From NCBI GenBank assembly GCA_024636875.1, contig JAGXGJ010000076.1:1-37093 (forward strand): 37,093 nucleotides of DNA, in the 5' to 3' direction. The notes under the pieces are model-generated. The model saw nothing but the letters and a program-made list of their open reading frames with translations, had not been told where the DNA came from and did no database searches. This DNA comes from Methylococcaceae bacterium. GTDB taxonomy: Bacteria > Pseudomonadota > Gammaproteobacteria > Methylococcales > Methylomonadaceae. A program made the position numbers and the translations under genes. Positions 9,313 to 35,661 of this stretch are shown in pieces. Position 1 is the stretch's first letter; each line of letters starts with the position of its first letter.

Positions 9313-10908
9313 TCAATAATAGACTCTGAATGACCGCTGTATTTCATCAAACTCAAAAAGGTAGGGCTGCGCCACCTGGTGATTATTAACCACGACAATG
9401 AGATCATGAGAAAAAACCGACGTGTTGTACCAGTTAAAACTGCCTTCTATGACAATCGAATCGTCGACAACGCAATATTTGGAATGAATGGGTGAATAAG
9501 GAACGGGGTGATCGTCTTGCCCATATACCAGACCCACCGGAATACCGGCATTTTTTAGTCGCTGCACTGCCGGCAGCAGCGGGCGATTGAGTTCTTCCCA
9601 CATAGGCCGCGCTACACCAATCCGACCCTGTCTGGCCAGATGGCCATTAAAGAGAATATGGACATAAACCCCTCTGTCCTGGGCATGGATCAAGGCATCA
9701 ACGACACTGTCATGATGATCTCCCAATAGGTCGCCCATCAAAAACAAACACAGCTTGATCGAATGTCTGGCACGGTGAATTTCGGCCAGGATGGCATGAT
9801 GCGGGCGATAGGGCCTCCCGTTGAGCATATGATGTCTGCCGAAAGTGTAGAGCAGATTGAAATGGCTCAACGGATCAATGCCATATTTTTGATTAACGCC
9901 GCCGCGTTGACTCTGGAATATATTGTCCAGCAGACGGCATACGCCCTTGGTATGAAAGGTCATCCCCGATTCCCAGTTGGCCCACCAGCGATCGAAGGTA
10001 ATATTAAATGAACCCAGAATGCAATCCTCATCGTTAAAAATGACAAATTTTGTGTGCATATCCGGTTCAACTTCAATGAGGTGATGTCTGGGTGTGCAGA
10101 AGACGCCTATCAGTTCAACTCTGGCGCGCTTCAAACGGGCATAATTTTGATTGTTGGTGAGCGTCATCTTGCGCCAGTCGACAATACACTGAACCAGGAC
10201 CCCCTGGTGACTGGCATGGATCAAATGGGAAATGAAATCGTAATCATCTATACAATCAACGCTGACCTTGATGGTACAAAGCCGGCCAGGATTTTCCCAT
10301 TTGCTATGTATCACCTTGTCTATATGGTCATGGATAAAACGTTTGGGATGATAGGGATGGTACTGCTGGCCTTTGGTAAATTTGGGAGTAAGGTTCAAGG
10401 ATTCGAAATGGTGATTATACCAGTCGGCGTCGCACTGTAATTCGCCGGTATTCAATTCATAGGTTCGATAGGCATTAGGGGTCGACCATTCTCCGGAGAT
10501 CCTTCGATATTGCGGGTGCCCATCCTGAACCTGATGCCTGTCCATGAAAATGTAGTCATTTTGTGAAGGAATGGAGTGTTCATCCAGATGCACAATGAAA
10601 GAAAACTTGACGCAGTTTATCGGACCCAAGTTGTTGGAAAACGGGTGGATATAAAAATCGCGCGTACTGCGCTTGTGCCGATCCCATTGGACATCAAAGA
10701 CGTCCGTATCAACAATGTAGGTTTCGCATGTACCATGGTCGCGATACACTTTAAGTATAACCTTGACATTGGCCTGAGCACCGTAGAAAACATCAAATTC
10801 TATTTTTCCCCAGCGAATATCAAATTTATCATTGATATCATTGGCTTTTTGAAAATAGCCGCCCAGATGCCCATGAGTGGGCATGGCATAATGTTCTGCT
10901 ATTTGCAT
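9313..10908 (-). CDS. phospholipase D-like protein with two HKD motifs and an uncharacterised beta-rich N-terminal domain
   Basis: First motif DMHTKFVIFNDEDCILGSFNITFDRW; second motif IHSKYCVVDDSIVIEGSFNWYNTS. The roughly 190-aa N-terminus resembles no family I recognise. Confidence 0.88.
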   Translation of the reverse strand: MQIAEHYAMPTHGHLGGYFQKANDINDKFDIRWGKIEFDVFYGAQANVKVILKVYRDHGTCETYIVDTDVFDVQWDRHKRSTRDFYIHPFSNNLGPINCVKFSFIVHLDEHSIPSQNDYIFMDRHQVQDGHPQYRRISGEWSTPNAYRTYELNTGELQCDADWYNHHFESLNLTPKFTKGQQYHPYHPKRFIHDHIDKVIHSKWENPGRLCTIKVSVDCIDDYDFISHLIHASHQGVLVQCIVDWRKMTLTNNQNYARLKRARVELIGVFCTPRHHLIEVEPDMHTKFVIFNDEDCILGSFNITFDRWWANWESGMTFHTKGVCRLLDNIFQSQRGGVNQKYGIDPLSHFNLLYTFGRHHMLNGRPYRPHHAILAEIHRARHSIKLCLFLMGDLLGDHHDSVVDALIHAQDRGVYVHILFNGHLARQGRIGVARPMWEELNRPLLPAVQRLKNAGIPVGLVYGQDDHPVPYSPIHSKYCVVDDSIVIEGSFNWYNTSVFSHDLIVVVNNHQVAQPYLFEFDEIQRSFRVYY

Positions 10909-11007: not shown

Positions 11008-11112
11008 TATAGGAGCCAAAGTTGGTAAAGCGACCTTTGTAATACCCTCACCCTAACCCTCTCCCAAAGGGAGAGGGGACTTTGTGTCGCTTTACCAACG
11101 TCGGACTCTATA
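11008..11112. mobile_element. 105-bp MITE, copy 1
   Basis: TATAGGAGCCAAAGTTGGTAAAGCGAC ... GTCGCTTTACCAACGTCGGACTCTATA imperfect TIRs; near-identical copy at 31561-31665; internal CCCTCTCCC/GGGAGAGGG hairpin. Confidence 0.85.
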
Positions 11113-12615
11113 CTTCGGTTCAAAGGTCATAAGATAGCCATTATGATCCGAGACTCTGCCATAATCTTCTTCTGTAAACAGCTCTCTTCCTGAAATGATG
11201 TGTAAATCACTCGCCTTGTTCATGAAAATATAATCAATACGATAATCATCGGCAAGATAATGCTGCCAGTAGGGATCATTCACTTTAAAGATTTTTTCAA
11301 ACACGTCATGGGCGCTGGCATCTAGAAACTGGTCTTCATATTCCCTGGAGTTGACCACCAGTTGATAGCCTTCTGATCCTGCCGTGATATTAAAATCACC
11401 GCACAACAGGGTGCCGCTGACATCCGTTGTCTGGTTATCAGCCGCCCACCTGCTCAGCTCTTTAAACTGTTCTGGAAAGCCGTCGTCCCACCAGCTCAGG
11501 TGCGCCGAAAAAAAATTGATTAAGCCCATATAGGGAACATGCACTTGAGCCATAACCACTTTTCTGGTGTGAATGTCATAGGGATCATGAATGTTTGATA
11601 CATATTTTGATGCCTGTTTCAACATCGGGTAGCGGCTCAAAATGGCCACGCCTTCGCGATATTTGTTAAAACCCAAATGCGCCCAATCGGCATGAATATG
11701 GTATGGCTTTTTCAGCTGGTCATTAATTATTTTAGCCGAATTGCTATTCCAGTCGCCATGCCCTTCATTCCAGAGTTCAGCCACTTCCTGAAGACAGACA
11801 ATATCAACATCCAGCTCGTTAATGGCCCTGGCTATTTGTGAAAACTTGGTGTCCTGATTTTCTTCCTGATAACAATGCAGATTGAGGATCATAACGTTTA
11901 GTGGTTCATGACTAAGCGAGTAATTCTTGCCATAGTTGTTGTCCCATATAATCTGATCCCTGCATTCGCAGGAAATGGTATATTGCAATCGAAAAGCATC
12001 GTTGATCTTGAGCAATCCCTGCCAAATCTGGGATCCGTATTGATTCGGATTCCTGGCATTACTACGGGATTTTTCATTCCAATAGTTTCTTTTGAAATGG
12101 CAGGGGGTAAGATGCGTGTGCTGCCAATTGTCCGTTGTCCAGTGAATAGTGACTGTTTCAGCATGAACTGAATGATTTACCGATACTGTGATGGGAACGT
12201 GTTTCTGGCCCTCTTTCAGCCGGTTCTCAAAGCCAATGTTCAGTACCGGCTGAGTGGTTACTACTTTAATTCCGGAGTCGGCCTGGCTGGAATAATTCAG
12301 GCCCTGCTTATTGTCCCAATATTCTCTGCCCAGTGTTTGATAACGCAAGGCAAACTTGATATTACCCTGGAGTGATTTATCTGCTGCGGAATTAAATGTT
12401 GCATGAGCCCGCCAGTACTCTTTATTATCCTCCAGCTTGCTGTGCCAGCTTGCCGATAGGGTTTGCCATTCATCATCCTCGCCTGCCCAGAGAACATCTA
12501 TTTTCTTGTCATGGCTTAAGTTTTCTACCAGCATAAAAAACGACAGTTCCTGTTGAAGAGCTCTTTTTTTTCTGGAAATTATATTTTCTACATACAGCAG
12601 CTGGATTTCATTCAT
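11092..12615 (-). CDS. Tandem CBM21-like domains fused to an endonuclease/exonuclease/phosphatase (EEP) domain
   Basis: Two CBM21-type signatures: IKFALRYQTLGREYWDNKQGLNYS and FRLQYTISCECRDQIIWDNNYGKNYSL (with TIHWTTDNWQHTH). EEP motifs: LNLHCYQ, IVCLQEV, NFFSAHLSWW, LLCGDFNITAGS, YRIDYIFMN, VSDHNGYLMTF. Confidence 0.85.
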   Translation of the reverse strand: MNEIQLLYVENIISRKKRALQQELSFFMLVENLSHDKKIDVLWAGEDDEWQTLSASWHSKLEDNKEYWRAHATFNSAADKSLQGNIKFALRYQTLGREYWDNKQGLNYSSQADSGIKVVTTQPVLNIGFENRLKEGQKHVPITVSVNHSVHAETVTIHWTTDNWQHTHLTPCHFKRNYWNEKSRSNARNPNQYGSQIWQGLLKINDAFRLQYTISCECRDQIIWDNNYGKNYSLSHEPLNVMILNLHCYQEENQDTKFSQIARAINELDVDIVCLQEVAELWNEGHGDWNSNSAKIINDQLKKPYHIHADWAHLGFNKYREGVAILSRYPMLKQASKYVSNIHDPYDIHTRKVVMAQVHVPYMGLINFFSAHLSWWDDGFPEQFKELSRWAADNQTTDVSGTLLCGDFNITAGSEGYQLVVNSREYEDQFLDASAHDVFEKIFKVNDPYWQHYLADDYRIDYIFMNKASDLHIISGRELFTEEDYGRVSDHNGYLMTFEPKYRVRRW

Positions 12616-12655: not shown

Positions 12656-14122
12656 TTAATCTCCCCGGCGCGATAGTTGCGTATCAGCTTCAAGTTTTTC
12701 ATATAACGCCAGATACTGCTCAGCGCTGCGCTGCCAGGAGAAATCCATTTTTAAGGCATTAGTCTGCATTTTCTTCCAGGTATCAGGATAGCTATATAAA
12801 ATCAGGGCACGCTTAATGGCTTCCAGCAAAGAACTTGAACTGGCTTCGTTGAAGACGATACCACTCGCCGTTTGATTGGCTAATGTTTCAGGCAAGGTAT
12901 CTACGACAGTATCAGCCAACCCTCCGGTTTTTCTGACTACAGGAATTGTGCCGTAGCGTTGGCTGTACATTTGATTCAAACCGCAGGGCTCAAACCGTGA
13001 TGGCATTAAGAAAATATCAGCTCCGGCTTCGATGACATGAGCCAGCGTTTCATCGTAGCCAATATGTATCGCGATGTTATCAGGATAGAGCTCAGCCAGT
13101 TTTTTTAGCTGTTTTTCAAAGCCTTTATCGCCACTGCCGAGCAAGACAAATTGCATATCCATGGCGGCCATCTCAGGAATACATTCTATAATCAGGTCTA
13201 TGCCTTTTTGTTCAACCAGTCGGCCGATGAGTCCAAGGAGAGGGATGCGCTCATTAACTGGCAGTGCGAATCTTCTTTGTAATTCATATTTATTGAGCAG
13301 TTTTTTGTTGAGCGTTGTTGCTGAATAGTGCTGGGTAATATAGGGATCGGTTTCAGGATTCCATTGATCAAGATCAATACCGTTAATAATACCGCCTAAA
13401 GATTCTTTTCGATGACCCAGCAACCCTTCAAGGCCATAACCAAATTCCGGCGTTTGAATTTCCAGTGCGTAGGTCGGACTAACGGTAGTAATATAATCTG
13501 CATAAACCAGTCCACCTTTAATGAAAGACAGCATTTCATGAAACTCCAGCCCTTCAGGCTGCCATAACTTGCCAGGCAAGTTTAATGTGGCTGCGGTACT
13601 GCCAGTGAACAAGCCCTGATAAGCCATGTTATGTATAGTAAAAACGGTCGCTGGCCGGTCTTGCTCAAGCGATAATAAAGCCGGAACCAAACCGCTTTGC
13701 CAGTCGTTACAGTGGACTATATCGGGTTTCCAGCCCTGATGAATCCTGTCCATGGCAGCCTCGACAGCGATGCGGCAAAATAACGCAAACCGTTCAGCAT
13801 TAATGGGCCAGGGTTCGCCCTGTTCGTCAATATAGGGGTTGCCTGGATAGTTGTAGTAGACCGGATAATCAACCAGCCAGACAGTCACATGGCTGCCAGG
13901 CATGCGGGTTTCAAGTATATTAACGCTTCGGTTATCAACGCGAATGGAACAAAGAAAACGGACTTTTTCAGTGGTTTTTAAAGCCTGATAATTGGGTAGA
14001 ATTAATTTTATGTCTTGGGATAACTCAGCTAATGCTTTAGGCAGACTGCCGCAAACATCAGCAAGGCCTCCGGTTTTAATCAGAGGGTGTGCTTCACTGG
14101 TAACAAAAAGTATTTTTTTCAT
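12656..14122 (-). CDS. glgA: glycogen synthase (ADP-glucose type)
   Basis: MKKILFVTSEAHPLIKTGGLADVCGSLPKAL, HCNDWQSGLVPALL, TIHNMAYQGLF, GLIGRLVEQKGIDLI, MPSRFEPCGLNQMYSQRYGTIPVVRKTGGLADTV. Confidence 0.98.
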   Translation of the reverse strand: MKKILFVTSEAHPLIKTGGLADVCGSLPKALAELSQDIKLILPNYQALKTTEKVRFLCSIRVDNRSVNILETRMPGSHVTVWLVDYPVYYNYPGNPYIDEQGEPWPINAERFALFCRIAVEAAMDRIHQGWKPDIVHCNDWQSGLVPALLSLEQDRPATVFTIHNMAYQGLFTGSTAATLNLPGKLWQPEGLEFHEMLSFIKGGLVYADYITTVSPTYALEIQTPEFGYGLEGLLGHRKESLGGIINGIDLDQWNPETDPYITQHYSATTLNKKLLNKYELQRRFALPVNERIPLLGLIGRLVEQKGIDLIIECIPEMAAMDMQFVLLGSGDKGFEKQLKKLAELYPDNIAIHIGYDETLAHVIEAGADIFLMPSRFEPCGLNQMYSQRYGTIPVVRKTGGLADTVVDTLPETLANQTASGIVFNEASSSSLLEAIKRALILYSYPDTWKKMQTNALKMDFSWQRSAEQYLALYEKLEADTQLSRRGD

Positions 14123-14215: not shown

Positions 14216-16747
14216 CTATAATTTTAAGATCAAAGCCCCCAAAGGCGGCAAGGTAAGGCTAATGGAATGCGGGTGATTCATCCACGCCGTTGGTTCTGAT
14301 GCAACTGCAGCATTACCCATGTTGCTGCCATCATAATATTTGGAGTCGGAATTAAAAATCTCGGTATAGGTGCCGGCCTCAGGCACGCCGAGCCGGTAAT
14401 TCTCTCTGGGCACGGGCGTAAAGTTGAGTACAATAATTAATTCTTCGGATTCATTTTTGCGGCGGTAACTGATGATTGATTGCTGAACGTCATGGCAATC
14501 AATCCATTCAAAACCATGAGGATCAAAATCATGGGTGAATAAAGCCGGATGTGATTTATAAACATGATTCAGGTCTTTCACTAATGTTTGCACGCCCTTA
14601 TGATGCGGGTAATCCAGTACCCACCAGTCCAAATCCTTGTTGGAATTCCATTCATTGCCTTGCCCGAACTCACAGCCCATAAACAACAGTTTTTTGCCTG
14701 GGTAAGTATACATGAAGGTATATAGCAGCCGTAAATTCGCGAAGCGCTGCCATTCATCCCCCGGCATCCTGTTAACTATAGAACCTTTCCCGTGTACTAC
14801 TTCATCATGCGAAAAAGGCAGCGTGAAGTTTTCGGTAAAGGCATAGAGCATCCCGAATGTGAGCTGGTCATGATGGTATTTGCGGTGTATGGGTTCCTCA
14901 CTCATATAAGACAGTACATCATGCATCCAACCCATATTCCATTTCATTGAAAAGCCCAGGCCGCCGGTCCATGTCGGACGGGTCACCTGAGGCCAGGCAG
15001 TGGATTCTTCGGCCATCATGACAGTACCCGGGTGCAGGTCGTGGGTGACGGTATTGAGTTCTCTGAAAAAATCAATGGCCTCCAGATTTTCGTTGCCGCC
15101 ATACATGTTAGGAATCCAGTCATTATCTTCGCGGGAATAATCCAGATAAAGCATGGATGCTACAGCATCGACTCTCAAGCCATCAAGGTGTAATTCTTCC
15201 AGCCAGAAGTTCGCGCTGGCGAGTAAAAAGTTTTTTACCTCATTACGTCCAAAGTTATAGATCAGTGTACCCCAGTCACGGTGTTCGCCTTTACGCGGGT
15301 CTTCATGTTCATACAGGGCGCTGCCATCAAATCTGGCCAAGGCAAACGCATCCTTAGGAAAATGTGCAGGCACCCAATCGAGAATAATGCCTATGTCATT
15401 TTGGTGGCAGACGTCGACAAAATAGCGGAAATCATCGGGCGTACCGTGACGGCTGGTTGGAGCAAAATAGCCTGTGGTTTGATATCCCCATGAACCATCA
15501 AAAGGATGTTCGGTTATAGGCAACAGTTCAATATGGGTGAAGCCCATCTCTTTAACATAGTTTACAAGTTCGACAGCGAGTGTCCGGTAAGTCAGGAAAT
15601 TGCCCTGATTATCCCGCCGCCACGAGCCCAGATGAACTTCATAAATAGCCATGGGTTCATGCAGCCAGTCGTGCTTGGCGCGCTGCATCATCCAGCGGGT
15701 GTCCTGCCAGTTATAAGTTTTTTCCCTGACTACAATTGACGACGTGTTTGGACGAAACTCAAATTGCTGCCCATAAGGGTCTGTCTTTAGTAGCAGCTCA
15801 TTGGTATTGCGATTTAATATTTCAAATTTGTACAAGCAACCTTCTTTTAGGCCCGGGATGAACAGCTCCCAAATACCGCTGCCACCGAGATTTCGCATCG
15901 GGTTGCAGCGGCCATCCCAGCGATTAAAGTCGCCAACCACACTGATTCGGCCGGCATTGGGAGCCCAAATGGAAAATAAAACGCCATCAATATCATCGAC
16001 AGTATGCAGGTGGCCGCCCAGTTTTTGGTATATGTGCCAGTGCCTGCCTTCGCCAAACAGATGCTGGTCAAATTCCGGAAATTGGGGGCCAAAGTCATAC
16101 GGATCATAATTCTCGTGGGTGTAGCCGTTTTTATCTACCCAGGTTAATTTATAATGCTGCGGCAGTTCTCCTTCTTTGGCGTAATATTCAAAAAAATCCG
16201 TATTAGGTATCCGGTTAAAAAAAGGTCCCTCATTGCCGAGGCGAATCGTTTCGGCGCATGGCTGATAGACTTTAACCAAAATTTGATTGTTCTTTGGATG
16301 GCGGCCCAAGACTGAAAAAGGATCATGATGTCTGGCTTCCATAATTTTTATGGAATCGGGATCCAGTTTATTTTCTTCTTTTTTCGCTATTATGGTTTTT
16401 GCAGCTTTAGGGGCTGGTGTTTGTACCTCTATTTTTGTTTTTTCAGATTTAATAGCATCAGCGGGAGCGGCTTTTGCTTCTGTTTTTGCTGCACTGGTTT
16501 TTGCCGGTTCAGGAGCTGCTGTCTTTGCTTCTTTTTTTGCATCTTCAGGTTTTTTAATATCAGAGGCAGCAGCCTTGACTTCATTTGGGTTTACGGTTTT
16601 CTTGGGATTGGACTCAATCGGTTGCGATGTTGTTTTTTCTGCAATAATTTTTGCAGATTTGGAGTCAGGCGTGTTCGCTTCCGATTTTGCTGCACTGGTT
16701 TTTGTAGCTTCAGAGTCAAGTGTATTATTAGTAGAACGCTTTTTCAC
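14216..16747 (-). CDS. glgB: 1,4-alpha-glucan branching enzyme with a ~135-aa Ala/Lys/Pro-rich N-terminal extension
   Basis: [85 protein letters not shown]. The extension is in frame from a GTG start. Confidence 0.97.
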
Positions 16748-16843: not shown

Positions 16844-18124
16844 ATGTCAATGTCAAGCAATAAAAAGCATGATCATAATGTCAGTCATTTGACCCGGAAT
16901 ACAATCGCACTAATATTAGCTGGCGGCCGGGGTTCGCGGTTGCTGAACATGACAGATTGGCGCGCCAAGCCGGCTGTGCCTTTTGGTGGCAAACTGCGCA
17001 TTATTGATTTTCCGTTATCCAATTGCATAAATTCCGGGATCCGCAAGATTGGCATTTTAACGCAATACAAGGCAGATTCTCTAATTCGCCATATTCAGCA
17101 GGGATGGGGTTTTTTGCGCGGCGAATTCGGTGAATATGTTGATTTGATGCCTGCCCAACAAAGACATGGTGAAGATTCCTGGTATAAAGGTACGGCTGAC
17201 GCTGTGTTTCAGAACATTGATATTCTCCGTGGCCGCCATCCTGAACACATTCTGGTATTGGCCGGTGATCACATTTATAAAATGGATTATGGTGAAATGC
17301 TGGCCGACCATGTTGAAAAAAATGCCGATATAACACTGGGTTGTCTGGAAGTATCGCTGGAAGAAGCAACGGCCTTCGGCGTGATTGATATTGATGCCAA
17401 TCGACGGGTTAAAGCTTTTATTGAAAAACCGGCAAATCCTCCTGTTATGCCCGGTAGAACTGATACGGCATTGGTGTCTATGGGTATTTATATTTTTAAT
17501 GCCGGTTTTCTTTTTGAACAGTTGCTTAAAGATGCTGACACCAAAGGCTCAAGCAACGATTTTGGTAAAGACATTATTCCTGCCGTTATTGATAAATATA
17601 TAGTCAACGCCTATCCGTTTTTAGACTTGCAAAGCGGTGAACAAAGTTACTGGCGTGATGTGGGAACCATAGACGCCTACTGGGCTGCCAATATGGAATT
17701 AATCGGGGTAAATCCCGGTTTGAATTTATATGATAACACTTGGCCAATATGGACTACTCAGGAACAGACACCGCCTGCCAAATTTGTTTTTGATGATGAC
17801 GACAGGCGAGGACAGGCTGTGGACTCCATGGTTTCAGGCGGCTGTGTGATTTCTGGAGCAAAAATCAGACATTCCCTGATATTCTCAAATGTCCGGGTTA
17901 ATTCATATACTACTGTGCAAGACTCCCTTGTTTTGCCCGAGGTTAATATTGCCCGTCATTGCCGTATCACCAAAGCGATTATAGAAAAAGGCTGCGAAGT
18001 CCCGGAAGGTATGGTTATAGGCGAAAACAGGGCAGAAGACGAGAAAAGATTTCATGTCAGCCCCGGCGGAGTCGTTCTGGTGACTCCTGAAATGTTGGGG
18101 CAAAAGTTGCATTATGTCCGTTAG
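16844..18124 (+). CDS. glgC: glucose-1-phosphate adenylyltransferase
   Basis: [67 protein letters not shown] and [12 protein letters not shown]. Confidence 0.98.
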
Positions 18125-18420: not shown

Positions 18421-20112
18421 ATGTCAGACCAAAAAAAGTTGAGATTAGTGCTGTGCTGGCACATGCATCAGCCGGAATACAGGGACTTGCAAACCGGGGA
18501 ATTTAAATTGCCGTGGACTTATCTGCATGTCATTAAGGATTATGTCGACATGGTTGCGCATCTGGAAGCAGTACCGGAGGCAAAAGCGGTAATCAATTTT
18601 GCGCCTATTTTGCTGGAACAAATAGAAGAATATGCCAGCCAGATCAGCGGTTACCTGCATAAAGATCGAGCAATCACGGATCCTTTACTGGCGGCATTAG
18701 TTGCCCCGGTTATTCCTGAAGATCCTGAAGATCGTTTGCAACTGGTTAGGGACTGTATGCGGGCAAATCGTGACCGGCAAATCAACCGCTACCCGGCGTT
18801 CGTAAAACTGGTTGAAATGACTGATTGGCTTGAACAGCATTGCGGCTCGTTGTACTATGTCAATTCCCAGTTTATTAGCGACATACTGGTTTGGTATCAT
18901 CTGGTCTGGATGGGAGAAACAGTAAAATTAACGGACAGCAGGGTACAGTATTTAATACTGAAAGGCTCAGGTTATACGCTGCACGACAGGATTGAAATCC
19001 TGCAAATTATTGGAGATCTGCTGGCAGACGTGATCCGAAGATATAAGGTACTTGCCAAAAAAAATCAGATTGAACTTTCGATAACCCCTTATGCGCATCC
19101 TATTATGCCGTTGTTGCTGGACCTGAAGACGACACATGAAGCGATGCCCGATGCGCCTTTGCCTGAGTTGGCCGATTATCCGGGCGGTGAAGAGCGCGTG
19201 GCATGGCATCTAGAAAAAGGCGTGCAGACCTTTAAACGATTTTTTGGTTTTAAGCCCAAAGGTTGTTGGCCTTCAGAAGGCAGTGTCAGTGAGCAGACGC
19301 TGGAAATACTGGGTGATTTTGGCTTTAGATGGACAGCAAGCGGTGGAGCAGTATTGCGCAATAGTTTAGACCTGCAGGAAAATAAAAAACCATCAGGAAT
19401 ACATCACCCTTTTAAGCTTAAAAACACTAAAATAGCCTGTTTTTTTCGGGATGACGGCCTATCTGACCTTATCGGTTTTGAATATTCAAAATGGCATGCC
19501 GATGATGCTGTCGCCGATTTGATTCATCATCTGGAAAATATTGCAGCGCATGAACCCGGCGACAAAGTAGCTTCAATCATCATGGATGGCGAAAACGCCT
19601 GGGAATATTTTCCTGAAAATGGTTATCATTTCCTGAGCACCCTCTATAATCGATTGTCCAGTCACCCGGCAATAGAATTGACAACGTTTTCTGAGTGCTT
19701 GAAAAACAAGACAGTCGTAAAACCCCTGGCAAAACTGGTTGCGGGCAGTTGGGTTTACGGCACCTTTTCAACGTGGATTGGTTCAGCCGACAAGAACCGC
19801 GGCTGGGATATGCTGGGCGATGTTAAAAAGGCCTTCGATGAAGCTCTGGCCGCCAAGCGCTTAACCGGTAAACAAGTGCAAGAGGCCGAGTTTCAATTGG
19901 CGGTTTGTGAAGGTTCCGACTGGTTCTGGTGGTTTGGTGATTATAATCCAGGCGAAGCAGTCAGCAGTTTTGAAAAGCAATACCGGCTAAATTTAGCCAA
20001 TCTGTATCGATTATTAGGCGAAGAGCCTCCAGCTTATCTGGCGCTGTCATTTACCCAAGGGGTTGGTCACCCAGCCATGGGTGGAGCCATGCGGCCAGGC
20101 GTTGAATACTAA
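18421..20112 (+). CDS. glycoside hydrolase family 57 protein (alpha-amylase/glucanotransferase-like)
   Basis: LRLVLCWHMHQPEYRDLQTGEFKLPWTYLHVIKDYVDMVAHLE, GCWPSEGSVSEQTLEILGDFGFRWTASG, ASIIMDGENAWEYFPENGYHFLSTLY, EGSDWFWWFGDYN. Confidence 0.93.
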   Translation: MSDQKKLRLVLCWHMHQPEYRDLQTGEFKLPWTYLHVIKDYVDMVAHLEAVPEAKAVINFAPILLEQIEEYASQISGYLHKDRAITDPLLAALVAPVIPEDPEDRLQLVRDCMRANRDRQINRYPAFVKLVEMTDWLEQHCGSLYYVNSQFISDILVWYHLVWMGETVKLTDSRVQYLILKGSGYTLHDRIEILQIIGDLLADVIRRYKVLAKKNQIELSITPYAHPIMPLLLDLKTTHEAMPDAPLPELADYPGGEERVAWHLEKGVQTFKRFFGFKPKGCWPSEGSVSEQTLEILGDFGFRWTASGGAVLRNSLDLQENKKPSGIHHPFKLKNTKIACFFRDDGLSDLIGFEYSKWHADDAVADLIHHLENIAAHEPGDKVASIIMDGENAWEYFPENGYHFLSTLYNRLSSHPAIELTTFSECLKNKTVVKPLAKLVAGSWVYGTFSTWIGSADKNRGWDMLGDVKKAFDEALAAKRLTGKQVQEAEFQLAVCEGSDWFWWFGDYNPGEAVSSFEKQYRLNLANLYRLLGEEPPAYLALSFTQGVGHPAMGGAMRPGVEY

Positions 20113-20130: not shown

Positions 20131-21606
20131 GTGAAAAATCTTTTAAACAAACGCCGTGCAGGCATTCTGCTGCATATTACCTCGTTGCCCGGTGCAGATA
20201 AGCAGGGTGATTTCGGTCAGGATGCCTATTATTTTGTCAATTTTCTGCATGATGCCGGTATTGGCGTATGGCAAACGCTGCCTTTGGGCATAACCCATGA
20301 GGATGGTTCTCCTTATCAATGCTTATCAGCTCATGCCGGCAATCCGGCATTCATTGATATTGAGGGGTTGGTGAAACTGGGTTGGTTACAACATTCAGGG
20401 CAGTACGAAGAAGGCCAGGGAACTGCCGCGTTCAACAAAAGGAGCCTGGTCGCAAAAGCTTATCATGGTTTTATAGAGTGCGCTGAACGACGGGATTGGG
20501 ATGATTTTGCCCATTTTTGTCAGGAAAAGGCCTTTTGGCTTGATGATTTTGCCTTGTTTATAGCGCTTAGGGATGAATTGAATCAACAATGCTGGAATCA
20601 ATGGCCCGAACCATACAAGGAAAGAGATTCAAAAGCACTCAAGGAAGCACGCCACCGATTATCTGCGTTAATAGAAGAGATTAAATTCGAGCAATATGTT
20701 TTTTTCCGGCAATGGATGGCTTTAAAAGCCTATGCCAATGAACGCGGGGTGCTTTTGTTTGGCGATATTCCTATTTTCGTAGCTTATGACAGTTCAGATG
20801 TCTGGGCTAATCGTGAGGTTTTTAAACTCGATGAAGCTGGTGAATTGTTGGTTGTCGCAGGTGTTCCACCTGATTATTTTTCTGCAACGGGTCAGCGCTG
20901 GGGCAACCCGCATTATGATTGGAACTATCTAAAGAAAACCTGGTTTAAATGGTGGATTGAACGAATGCAAACTCAGCTCGAGCAGTTTGATATTCTTCGT
21001 ATCGATCATTTTCGTGGTCTGGAGGCGGCATGGGAGATACCCGCTGATGAACCTACAGCACAAATTGGGCAGTGGGTTAAAGCGCCTGGAAAAGCCTTGC
21101 TGAAGGAAATGAAAGCAAAACTGGGATCGATTCCCCTGGTGGCTGAAGATCTCGGTATTATTACCGATGAAGTCGAAGCATTGAGAGATGAGTTTGATTT
21201 ACCCGGCATGAAGATTTTACAGTTTGCTTTTGGTGGCGGGCCTGATAATCCCTATCTACCCGACAATTATGTAAAAAATTGCGTTGTTTATACCGGCACG
21301 CATGATAATGACACGACTTTGGGCTGGTCACTCAGCATCAGCGACTATGAGAGAAACTATATTTACGATTATCTGGGCAATCCGTCAATATCACTGCATT
21401 GCGCACTGATACAAGCCGCCTTGGGATCGGTTGCAAATCTTGCAGTTATCCCCATGCAGGATATTCTTGAACTGGGTTCCGAGGCGCGCATAAACACTCC
21501 AGGCACGACGGAAGGCAACTGGCAGTGGCGTTTTCAATGGGATCAGCTGTCACCCGAGCGGGCCGCCCGGCTTGCACATCTGGTAAAATTGTTTAACCGG
21601 AATTAA
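20131..21606 (+). CDS. malQ: 4-alpha-glucanotransferase
   Basis: RRAGILLHITSLPGADKQGDFGQDAYYFVNFLHDAGIGVWQTLPLG, LFGDIPIFVAYDSSDVWANREVF, LRIDHFRGLEAAWEIPA, VAEDLGIIT, YTGTHDNDTTLGW. Confidence 0.97.
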   Translation: MKNLLNKRRAGILLHITSLPGADKQGDFGQDAYYFVNFLHDAGIGVWQTLPLGITHEDGSPYQCLSAHAGNPAFIDIEGLVKLGWLQHSGQYEEGQGTAAFNKRSLVAKAYHGFIECAERRDWDDFAHFCQEKAFWLDDFALFIALRDELNQQCWNQWPEPYKERDSKALKEARHRLSALIEEIKFEQYVFFRQWMALKAYANERGVLLFGDIPIFVAYDSSDVWANREVFKLDEAGELLVVAGVPPDYFSATGQRWGNPHYDWNYLKKTWFKWWIERMQTQLEQFDILRIDHFRGLEAAWEIPADEPTAQIGQWVKAPGKALLKEMKAKLGSIPLVAEDLGIITDEVEALRDEFDLPGMKILQFAFGGGPDNPYLPDNYVKNCVVYTGTHDNDTTLGWSLSISDYERNYIYDYLGNPSISLHCALIQAALGSVANLAVIPMQDILELGSEARINTPGTTEGNWQWRFQWDQLSPERAARLAHLVKLFNRN

Positions 21607-31560: not shown

Positions 31561-31665
31561 TATAGGAGCCAAAGTTGGTAAAGCGACCTTTGTAATACCC
31601 TCACCCTAACCCTCTCCCAAAGGGAGATGGTACTTTGTGTCGCTTTACCAACGTCGGACTCTATA
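31561..31665. mobile_element. 105-bp MITE, copy 2
   Basis: Same length and near-identical sequence to 11008-11112; differences seen at gagatggtac versus gagaggggac. Confidence 0.85.
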
Positions 31666-31729: not shown

Positions 31730-32905
31730 TTGTACCAGAAAGAGTTTGCTAGTCAACTCTGGATATCCCACCGCCATTGCTGTATAAAGTGCGTCTTTGC
31801 CACAACACATAACAGCCCCTTGAATCTACAAGCACTCCAAGTACGTCTCGTACGTCCTGATGAAGAACAGGGCTATCAAGCGCTAATGCAAGCCCATCAT
31901 TATTTAGGATCGCTGGCCAAGATCGGTGAAACTCTCTGGTACGTTGCCACTTATGTCGGTGAGTGGGTGGCGTTGTTGAGTTTTTCCTCGGCGGCGCTAA
32001 AGTGCGCCGCGCGGGATTGCTGGATAGGCTGGAATTTCAGGTACCAGTACTCTCGCCTTAATTTACTGACCAACAACAGCCGATTCTTGATCCTGCCGGC
32101 GTGGCATTATCCAAATCTGGCCTCAAAAACCCTCTCACTCTGTCTGAAGCGATTGTCCTGCGATTGGCAGACGCACTTTGACCATCCCTTGTTGTTGGTA
32201 GAAACCTTCGTCGATCCAGCACGCTTTCAAGGCACCCTCTATAAAGCGTCAAACTGGCTTTATCTGGGCAATACCCAAGGTTTTAGCCGGATGCGACAGA
32301 GTTACAGCGCGACTGCCACAGCGCCTAAAATGCTGTTTGTTTTTCTTTTGCAAGCCGATGCACGCGTCGTGCTTTCACGCCCCATACTCGAATCCCCTTA
32401 CCAAACCGGAACTCCAAAACTCATGTTATCCGCCGAAAAAATGCAATCGCTGTACGATTTTTTTACCGGCATTCCGGACCCGCGCCGCGCTGAGGGGCGG
32501 CGTCATTCATTGCCCACCGTTCTGGCTATCTCTGCGGCGGCGGTGTTATGCGGTAAGGAGGGCTATAAGGCCATAGGGGATTGGGCCAAGGCGCTTGGAC
32601 CGAAAGGCCGGGAGCGGTTTCGTTGCCGCTATGTAAAGGGCAGCTTCCAGGTACCCAGTGAATCCATCATCCGTGATGTACTTATCCGCGTGGATCCGGA
32701 GCAACTCGATTTAGCCCTGCAACACTGGCATAAAGCGCACGGACAGGAGGACGAAAGCCTTGCTATTGACGGCAAAACCATGAAAAACGCGATTGATGCA
32801 CAAGGCCGTCAAACCCACATTATGAGTGCCATTGGCCATCAATCCAAGGTCTGCTACACCCAAAAAAAGTCGGAACTCTGCCAGCAGAAGGCGATAGCGA
32901 GGTAG
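31730..32905 (+). CDS. DUF4338 (DruA-like) domain fused to the N-terminal part of an ISAs1-family transposase
   Basis: VRLVRPDEEQGYQALMQAHHYLGSLAKIGETLWYVATYVGEWVALLSFSSAALKCAARDCWIGW...NSRFLILPAWHYPNLASKTLSLCLKRLSCDWQTHFDHPLLLVETFVDPARFQGTLYKASNWLYLGNTQGF, then LYDFFTGIPDPRRAEGRRHSLPTVLAISAAAVLCG...LAIDGKTMKNAID. Confidence 0.85.
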   Translation: MYQKEFASQLWISHRHCCIKCVFATTHNSPLNLQALQVRLVRPDEEQGYQALMQAHHYLGSLAKIGETLWYVATYVGEWVALLSFSSAALKCAARDCWIGWNFRYQYSRLNLLTNNSRFLILPAWHYPNLASKTLSLCLKRLSCDWQTHFDHPLLLVETFVDPARFQGTLYKASNWLYLGNTQGFSRMRQSYSATATAPKMLFVFLLQADARVVLSRPILESPYQTGTPKLMLSAEKMQSLYDFFTGIPDPRRAEGRRHSLPTVLAISAAAVLCGKEGYKAIGDWAKALGPKGRERFRCRYVKGSFQVPSESIIRDVLIRVDPEQLDLALQHWHKAHGQEDESLAIDGKTMKNAIDAQGRQTHIMSAIGHQSKVCYTQKKSELCQQKAIAR

Positions 32906-33669: not shown

Positions 33670-35661
33670 TCAGCTTTGTTTTTCTGCAATCAACCGCTTC
33701 AATAAGTCTTTGCAGACGGCCATGTTTTTCTCGGCATACGCATTGAAATCATGATATTGCCACCACTCCTGTCTAGCTTCATATTGCGGTGCCAGTCTGT
33801 CAATAGTCAGCAAGTCATAGATATTGACCCATTCATCTGCCACTTTAATCGCCAGCCTGGGATTGAAAATATAAGCGCCGCGCAGTACGCGATAGAACAA
33901 TTTGCGGTTATGTTTGTCGTCTTTGCTGATTTCGTTTTTAGCCAGGATGCTGGACAGATAAGCCCGTTGTTTACGGCGTTCCGGAAGAATGCTGCCGGGG
34001 ATATGCTGCACGGCAGCGATAAAATCCTGGGTTGAAAAGCCTTCGAGCCGATACCTCATTTTTTTCGGCATCACGCGGTAAAACAGCGCGATCATCAAAT
34101 TAAGCATGAAGAATTCCATACTGTTCTTGTCGAGCTTGATCAGGTGATCATCGACCTGTATGCTCATGCTGGTGGGTTCCAGTTGTTCGTAAATATCAGT
34201 CAGCTTCTTTTTGGCGTAGCTTTCACTGCGATCCGTTTGCGCCAGAGCTATTTGAAAAGCCGTTAGCCCGTTGCCATCGACTTTTTCGGTGTCGGCGCCC
34301 AACTCAAACAGTGCCTTAATCACGTCGGTATTGCCCATCCAGGCGGCTACCATTAACGGCGTTTGATTGAAGATGTTGCGAAAATCCGGGCCGTACTGAT
34401 CAACTTTTTTGAGTACGGCATCGGGTTTTTTAAAACTGTAGGCGCTGTAGTGCTTTTGTTGCAGCAACTGCAAGCCTTTGTCGGGGTGTTTGGCGGCTTT
34501 GAATTCGGCTTTCAGCAGGGTATTGATGATGTCGCGGTCTTCATAAACCAGACCGTATTCAAACAAGGTCATTTTGGCATTTTTATCGTTGCCTTCAAGG
34601 GCTTTATGTTTTAAATCGGCCAGTGTTGCTGTGGTAATGACCTGCCAATCCGGTGTTTTTTGTTTGAGAATTTCACTGCGAATCCGCTCAGCTTGCTCTG
34701 GTTTACCTTGCAGTTCCAGTTTATGCGCTTCCTGACGCCAGGCATCAAGGCTGGAGTTTTGATTGGCAAGTTGCAGGCTGGCTTGGGCATCGCGCAAGCC
34801 TAGCAGATCCAGCAAGGGTTGCTTGGGGTTGCTTTCAATCCAGTACAGGTTTTTAACAGCTCGGGTGAGCGCGACGTACAAGGCATTAATATAGAATTTG
34901 TAGACTTCCAGCGATTTATCGGTTTTATCCTTGCCACGGGCATATTTAAGGTCTTGTTGCAAATCCGCAACACTGACGCCTTTGCTGATTTCGCGGTAAC
35001 GGGTTTCTTCCTGACTGAGGAAGTTGTAGAGAATGATGTTTTCATATTCCAATCCTTTGGCTTCCTGGATGGTAAATACCAACGGCGTGCTGAAATGTTG
35101 CTGCGCGGCCGGTTTTTGGTCGGTCGTCATAACAATGACCGCAAACAGCGTGGACGCTTTGGTTTTGCTGTCCAGTTCCTGGCGAATAGACGCGGTGTCC
35201 TGCAAAAACAGCACTTCACCCTGTGTGTGACCGTTGCTTTCGACCAAATAATGACTTTCTTTGTCGATGGAGCCGAAACGCTGATTTTTGATTTTGAGAA
35301 TCTTGTTGGCAATGTCGGTAACTTGCGGCGAATTGCGATAATTGGTATTGAGAATTCTGATCAGCTCATCAGAAGTTTGTATATCCTCCTGCCGGTAGAA
35401 CAGGCTTTTCACTTTCGACCAGGAAAAAAAGTTGGGATGGACAATCTGGTTGGAATCCCCGCACAAGATAAAATCCTGCGCCTGACGTAGCGATTTGATA
35501 ATCAGGTAAAGCTGGATATTGGTTAAATCCTGTACTTCATCGACAATGACAAAATCGTAAAGGGGCTCAATAAGCTGTAAATACTGATGACTGACGATGT
35601 TGCTATCGTAGAGCTGCTGATCTTGTAAAAAACTCAGGTATTTTTCAAAAACGTCGTACAC
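33670..35661 (-). CDS. C-terminal part of a UvrD-like SF1 helicase with ankyrin repeats (split gene)
   Basis: DFVIVDEVQDLTNIQLYLI (Walker B), FILCGDSNQIVHPNFFSW, LNTNYRNS, FTIQEAKGLEYENIILYNF, NALYVALTRAVKNLYWIE; ankyrin-like FNQTPLMVAAWMGNTDVIKALFELGADTEKVDGNGLTAFQIALAQ. Confidence 0.85.
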   Translation of the reverse strand: MYDVFEKYLSFLQDQQLYDSNIVSHQYLQLIEPLYDFVIVDEVQDLTNIQLYLIIKSLRQAQDFILCGDSNQIVHPNFFSWSKVKSLFYRQEDIQTSDELIRILNTNYRNSPQVTDIANKILKIKNQRFGSIDKESHYLVESNGHTQGEVLFLQDTASIRQELDSKTKASTLFAVIVMTTDQKPAAQQHFSTPLVFTIQEAKGLEYENIILYNFLSQEETRYREISKGVSVADLQQDLKYARGKDKTDKSLEVYKFYINALYVALTRAVKNLYWIESNPKQPLLDLLGLRDAQASLQLANQNSSLDAWRQEAHKLELQGKPEQAERIRSEILKQKTPDWQVITTATLADLKHKALEGNDKNAKMTLFEYGLVYEDRDIINTLLKAEFKAAKHPDKGLQLLQQKHYSAYSFKKPDAVLKKVDQYGPDFRNIFNQTPLMVAAWMGNTDVIKALFELGADTEKVDGNGLTAFQIALAQTDRSESYAKKKLTDIYEQLEPTSMSIQVDDHLIKLDKNSMEFFMLNLMIALFYRVMPKKMRYRLEGFSTQDFIAAVQHIPGSILPERRKQRAYLSSILAKNEISKDDKHNRKLFYRVLRGAYIFNPRLAIKVADEWVNIYDLLTIDRLAPQYEARQEWWQYHDFNAYAEKNMAVCKDLLKRLIAEKQS

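Follow-up and report, generated by a model that had tools for sequence, protein, structure and literature searches.

We found that a gene for a protein with two CBM21 domains and an EEP catalytic domain (CBM21-EEP) forms, with the gene for a PLD-like protein, a conserved two-gene glycogen accessory system that was previously uncharacterized. The gene lies in a 37,093-nucleotide stretch of DNA from a Methylococcaceae bacterium, the whole of which we analyzed and refer to as the window. The PLD protein is an obligate partner of CBM21-EEP. Support in silico comes from the domain architecture, the intact catalytic and glucan-contact residues, the glycogen-gene neighborhood, and the coupled inheritance of the PLD gene. 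We tentatively propose that CBM21-EEP works in the cytosol as a metal-dependent phosphoesterase tethered to glycogen, and that it and the PLD protein together act on glucan phosphate esters.

Domains and residues of CBM21-EEP

A sequence-only reading of the window had proposed an open reading frame at positions 11092 to 12615 that fuses tandem CBM21 domains to an EEP domain. The frame matched exactly, on the minus strand, and every motif quoted was found in it. That reading overlooked the glycogen operon and the obligate PLD partner. GGAG precedes the ATG, and the protein begins with MNEIQLLYVENIISRKK. Judged by eye, this N terminus has no recognizable signal peptide, and CBM21-EEP is therefore probably cytosolic. 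Full-length orthologues with 47 to 88% identity occur in dozens of genomes, which rules out a chance open reading frame or a frameshift.

In a Pfam search, the protein scored above the curated cut-offs of both profiles named in that reading: CBM_21 matched over two stretches (E=4.2e-18, 66.1 bits for the whole protein versus a cut-off of 28.9), and Exo_endo_phos gave 63.1 bits versus 24.5 (E=4e-17). The tandem CBM21-EEP fusion was also backed by sequence matches in the PDB, by residue conservation, and by an AlphaFold2 model with a mean pLDDT of 82. Judged by its sequence, CBM21-EEP is a member of both the CBM21 and the EEP families. Run over the genome DNA, CBM_21 exceeded its cut-off twice, both times in this gene and nowhere else in the assembly (77% complete), and it had no match in 14 control genomes.

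Features of the window, with coordinates, strand, and basis
Feature	Position	Strand	Basis
CBM21-CBM21-EEP gene, 507 aa, ATG start	11092..12615	-	ORF list, Pfam, orthologues
CBM21 domain 1, about aa 20-109	12289..12558	-	CBM_21 36.1 bits vs cut-off 28.9; alignment to 2djm
CBM21 domain 2, about aa 134-234	11914..12216	-	CBM_21 43.3 bits vs cut-off 28.9; alignment to 2eef
EEP (DNase-I-like) domain, about aa 239-499	11119..11901	-	Pfam; Foldseek 3teb; conservation
MITE-like repeat, ~101 bp	11010..11110		14-nt perfect inverted arms; inserted at TA
Double-HKD PLD-like protein, 531 aa	9313..10908	-	PLDc_2 E=1.6e-34, two stretches; co-occurrence
N-terminal beta-rich domain of PLD protein, about aa 1-145	10474..10908	-	Secondary structure in low-confidence model
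HKD motif 1 of PLD protein, HTKFVIFNDEDCILGSFN	10003..10056	-	H and K retained; Asn replaces usual Asp
HKD motif 2 of PLD protein, HSKYCVVDDSIVIEGSFN	9433..9486	-	Canonical; alignment
glgA, glycogen synthase	12656..14122	-	Pfam Glyco_transf_5; synteny
glgB, GH13 glucan-branching enzyme	14216..16747	-	Pfam
glgC, ADP-glucose pyrophosphorylase	16844..18124	+	NCBIfam TIGR02091
GH57 alpha-glucan enzyme	18421..20112	+	Pfam
GH77 4-alpha-glucanotransferase (malQ)	20131..21606	+	Pfam, NCBIfam

In a PDB sequence search, domain 1 matched the CBM21 of Rhizopus oryzae glucoamylase (RoGA; 2djm, 6.2e-5), and domain 2 matched PPP1R3B (2eef, 1.4e-5). Site I of the RoGA domain includes W47, Y94, N96, and N101, and site II includes K34, F58, and E68 (PMC3398936). 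In the alignment to 2djm, the site I residues correspond to W50, W100, N102, and N107 of domain 1; their counterparts in domain 2 are W164, W224, N227, and N231. Site II of domain 1 reads K37, W57, and E66, with an aromatic residue retained at F58. RoGA Y32 is replaced by H35 in domain 1, a position held by Tyr in most relatives, and RoGA Y83 is not retained (A89). Each site I residue of both domains is present in 47 to 54 of the 54 orthologues (51 to 54 for the tryptophans checked, 47 to 52 for the asparagines). The model of residues 1 to 236 is nearly all beta, and whole-chain Foldseek lists matches to the EEP domain. At the sequence level, predicted tethering to glycogen through the two CBM21 domains is well supported.

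The EEP domain has the complete catalytic set of Asn, Glu, His, Asp-x-Asn, Asp, and Asp-His. As had been claimed, the motifs are intact: the eight active-site residues checked (N245, E277, H372, D407, N409, D461, D490, and H491) are invariant in the 54 orthologues. Mean column identity in the same orthologues is highest in this domain (0.78, versus 0.65 and 0.63 for the CBM21 domains). The closest solved relative by sequence is the Leptotrichia protein 3TEB (4.6e-19), which is also the best PDB fold match of the AlphaFold2 model (Foldseek 3teb_B, E=1.9e-18, TM-score on target 0.81). Unlike CBM21-EEP, 3TEB is a stand-alone EEP protein with no CBM, and its record title names no function. After 3TEB, Foldseek listed sphingomyelinase (the human neutral enzyme, 8j2f, E=6.8e-13, is a close match), TDP2, and other EEP enzymes, among them the mannosyl-6-phosphatase Bt3783 (4c1r, E=2.4e-10). 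Bt3783 shares the EEP fold and is described as acting on sugar phosphate, although identity is only about 15% and the matched structure has no CBM21. Nucleases, sphingomyelinases, and TDP2 score comparably to it. We found no description of Bt3783 in open-access papers.

The sequence-only reading knew of no characterized bacterial protein with this architecture, and we found no characterized protein of this kind either. No NCBIfam model matched CBM21-EEP at its cut-off, the open-access literature yielded no description of the CBM21-CBM21-EEP architecture or of the CBM21-EEP/PLD cassette, and the PDB holds CBM21 and EEP relatives as separate domains only, with no fused structure.

An EEP-only paralogue of about 280 aa was also found. 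In one genome (G198), its gene (L149:7152-7994) follows that of CBM21-EEP after about 10 bp, which suggests related roles; in the other genomes examined it is located elsewhere, and the neighbors that we compared had none in common that indicates a role.

The PLD partner and its joint inheritance with CBM21-EEP

In the window, the PLD gene lies directly downstream of the CBM21-EEP gene. Two HxK motifs (H285/K287 and H475/K477) are invariant among 18 aligned PLD sequences, and column identity is 87% for the PLD protein versus 76% for CBM21-EEP. The protein is a member of the PLD superfamily and of no named subfamily. Its nearest relatives are the nucleases DrmC, NucT, Nuc, and Zucchini/MitoPLD, and these similarities are weak and below the NCBIfam family cut-offs; against the DrmC (DISARM) equivalog it scored 39.5 bits, under the cut-off of 133. 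The partner shares the HKD motifs of Nuc/NucT/MitoPLD-type proteins, but it differs from them in carrying two HKD motifs in one chain, an Asn in motif 1, and an N-terminal domain that matches no known family. The pLDDT of this domain is roughly 70 to 80, with weaker blocks within it. We considered a hidden CBM21 there and rejected it, as hhalign showed no profile relation. Foldseek matches of the PLD model (for example, polyphosphate kinase, TM 0.16) are meaningless because the model is too poor, with a mean pLDDT of 54.

We searched 201 genomes of the order for each protein. Both were present in 94 and neither in 106; one genome (G190) had the PLD protein only, and none had CBM21-EEP only. 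In 83 of the 94 genomes, the PLD gene comes next after CBM21-EEP on the same strand, with a median gap of 64 bp. In three others (G063, G116, and G142), both genes are present though 0.18 to 1.6 Mb apart on one contig. Gene-tree distances for the two proteins correlate at 0.89. The Fisher p value for co-occurrence (8e-58) ignores phylogeny, and our conclusion does not lean on it. Better support for the coupling comes from nine genera (g3, g4, g5, g6, g14, g15, g17, g19, and g25) that hold both carriers of the pair and genomes without it, a count taken from the search tables in which some absences could stem from incomplete assemblies.

All carriers within the order belong to the family of the window. 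The window itself is from a Methylobacter-like methanotroph and has other methanotrophs as relatives (Methylobacter, Methylomonas, and further Methylococcales), and the pair is present in the cultured Methylobacter tundripaludum SV96. Outside the order, we found pairs in Accumulibacter, another Rhodocyclaceae, and one unclassified Pseudomonadota contig (L046 and L048 to L050); glgA is present in these genomes. Among 399 sampled Pseudomonadota genomes, there was no further full-length CBM21-EEP or PLD protein. Aquimarina loci (L053 to L073) were rejected as orthologues, since no EEP was detected in them; they encode proteins of about 280 aa that have CBM21-like domains in tandem and a lipoprotein-like N terminus, and several have three CBM21-matching stretches in a row. 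A lone CBM21-pair-like ORF of 224 aa, without an EEP domain, lies beside an ORF of ~586 aa in another genome (G195, L159:601-1275).

Glycogen genes and the proposed function

In the window, glgB, glgA, and the CBM21-EEP gene follow one another on the same strand, with 40 bp between glgA and CBM21-EEP, and glgC and the GH57 and GH77 genes are divergent on the far side of glgB. A glucan gene was found within about 8 kb at 49 of the 58 loci, and several of the remainder are of the Rhodocyclaceae type. The commonest glucan neighbor is a GH57 branching enzyme immediately upstream on the same strand. In other genera, CBM21-EEP is preceded by a DUF4912 gene and by the gene for a GH57 branching enzyme that carries a BE_C domain, usually with gaps of <300 bp, and isoamylase-like GH13 genes are often close. 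The DUF4912 gene stands upstream of the branching enzyme and CBM21-EEP at 36 of the 58 loci (e.g., L038:5656-6270, in SV96). As a separate observation, the glgB ORF of the window opens with ~120 residues, among which Lys, Ala, Pro, Thr, and Glu are abundant, followed by GlgB_N.

According to the model that we favor, the two N-terminal CBM21 domains would dock the EEP enzyme on intracellular glycogen. EEP and PLD would then remove mono- or diester phosphate that has arisen on the growing alpha-glucan or been attached to it, leaving a glucan on which glycogen synthase and the branching and debranching/transfer enzymes could act. With a partner of the PLD type, a phosphodiester seems more likely than a simple monoester. 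Phosphate on glucan lowers the affinity of branching enzymes, a bacterial one included (PMC13011383), and this fits the recurrent position of CBM21-EEP beside branching enzymes. We also count Bt3783 in favor, as an EEP relative that acts on a sugar phosphate. Against the model, the same paper leaves it open whether glycogen in bacteria carries phosphate at all (PMC13011383).

Known glucan phosphatases are all DSPs (PMC13011383), so an EEP acting on glycogen would be a new variant. We found no Pfam match to a DSP domain in CBM21-EEP, whose catalytic domain is EEP, and the protein therefore stands outside the known glucan phosphatases. Like laforin (CBM20-DSP) and SEX4, it joins a glucan-binding module to a phosphatase-type domain in one chain and is linked to glycogen or starch. 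Unlike them, it has a metal-dependent EEP rather than a cysteine DSP, tandem CBM21 domains, a PLD partner, and a bacterial host, and its activity is predicted. The PP1-targeting PPP1R3 subunits offer a functional analogy, in that their CBM21 brings a phosphatase to glycogen, and domain 2 matches PPP1R3B; PPP1R3, however, recruits a separate Ser/Thr protein phosphatase, whereas CBM21-EEP is fused to an unrelated enzyme. The wider proposal, that the two genes edit both monoester and diester phosphate on the glycogen of bacteria and represent a non-DSP, metal-dependent class that evolved independently of laforin and SEX4, is more doubtful.

Several observations count against a glucan-phosphate substrate. 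The EEP fold is also that of nucleases, sphingomyelinases, and TDP2. At four Rhodocyclaceae-type loci, glucan genes do not adjoin the pair, although the genomes have glgA. Many relatives have glgA without the pair, which is thus dispensable for glycogen synthesis.

EEP enzymes cleave a range of phosphate esters, and CBM21-EEP could instead be a glycogen-tethered nucleotide or sugar-nucleotide hydrolase that adjusts glycogen synthesis by cleaving ADP-glucose or a signaling nucleotide on the surface of the granule. In its favor, in the genus of the window the gene is in line with glgB and glgA and opposite glgC. We consider it unlikely, because it leaves the PLD partner without a role and no sugar-nucleotide-specific relative is prominent among the Foldseek matches. 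Also improbable is a glycogen-docked pair of nucleases, EEP and PLD/Nuc type, that degrades RNA or DNA, perhaps for recycling during starvation, with the granule as a scaffold. The nuclease relatives of the PLD partner and the resemblance of TDP2 and DNase-like folds to the EEP domain are consistent with such a pair, but the PLD similarity is weak and under the family cut-offs, and two glucan-binding modules and operons with branching enzymes would lack an obvious reason.

Phospholipids are often the substrates of PLD families, and human neutral sphingomyelinase is close to the EEP domain in Foldseek. A pair of lipid phosphodiesterases, sphingomyelinase-like EEP and PLD, that acts on membrane or granule phospholipid while bound to glycogen is nevertheless very unlikely: we saw neither a membrane anchor nor a signal peptide, and no lipid-related gene recurs among the tallied neighbors. 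An anti-phage defense module, suggested by weak DrmC and MkoC matches of the PLD partner in PADLOC, is scarcely credible and was rejected, since PADLOC gives no match for CBM21-EEP, the DrmC score is 39.5 against 133, inheritance is stable with congruent trees, and the neighbors are metabolic rather than defensive.

Because the cassette is conserved in methanotrophs, including SV96, and in Accumulibacter, it makes the question of bacterial glycogen phosphorylation directly testable. The proposed action on glucan phosphate esters would bear on how carbon is stored by organisms that matter for methane removal and wastewater treatment.

A MITE-like repeat and other features of the window

The MITE-like repeat interrupts the TAA that was originally the stop codon of the CBM21-EEP gene, with a duplicated TA target. 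The C-terminal YRVRRW of the protein is derived from the repeat and is not ancestral. We found the empty insertion site at three other loci (L031, L033, and L002). The repeat core has 155 matches in the genome, versus 0 for a control, and a second, near-identical copy lies in the window at about 31563 to 31663. Elsewhere in the window, the ORF at 33670 to 35661 has UvrD-like helicase C-terminal and ankyrin-repeat matches, and the one at 31730 to 32905 matches DruA and a DDE_Tnp_1-associated domain and is probably transposase related.
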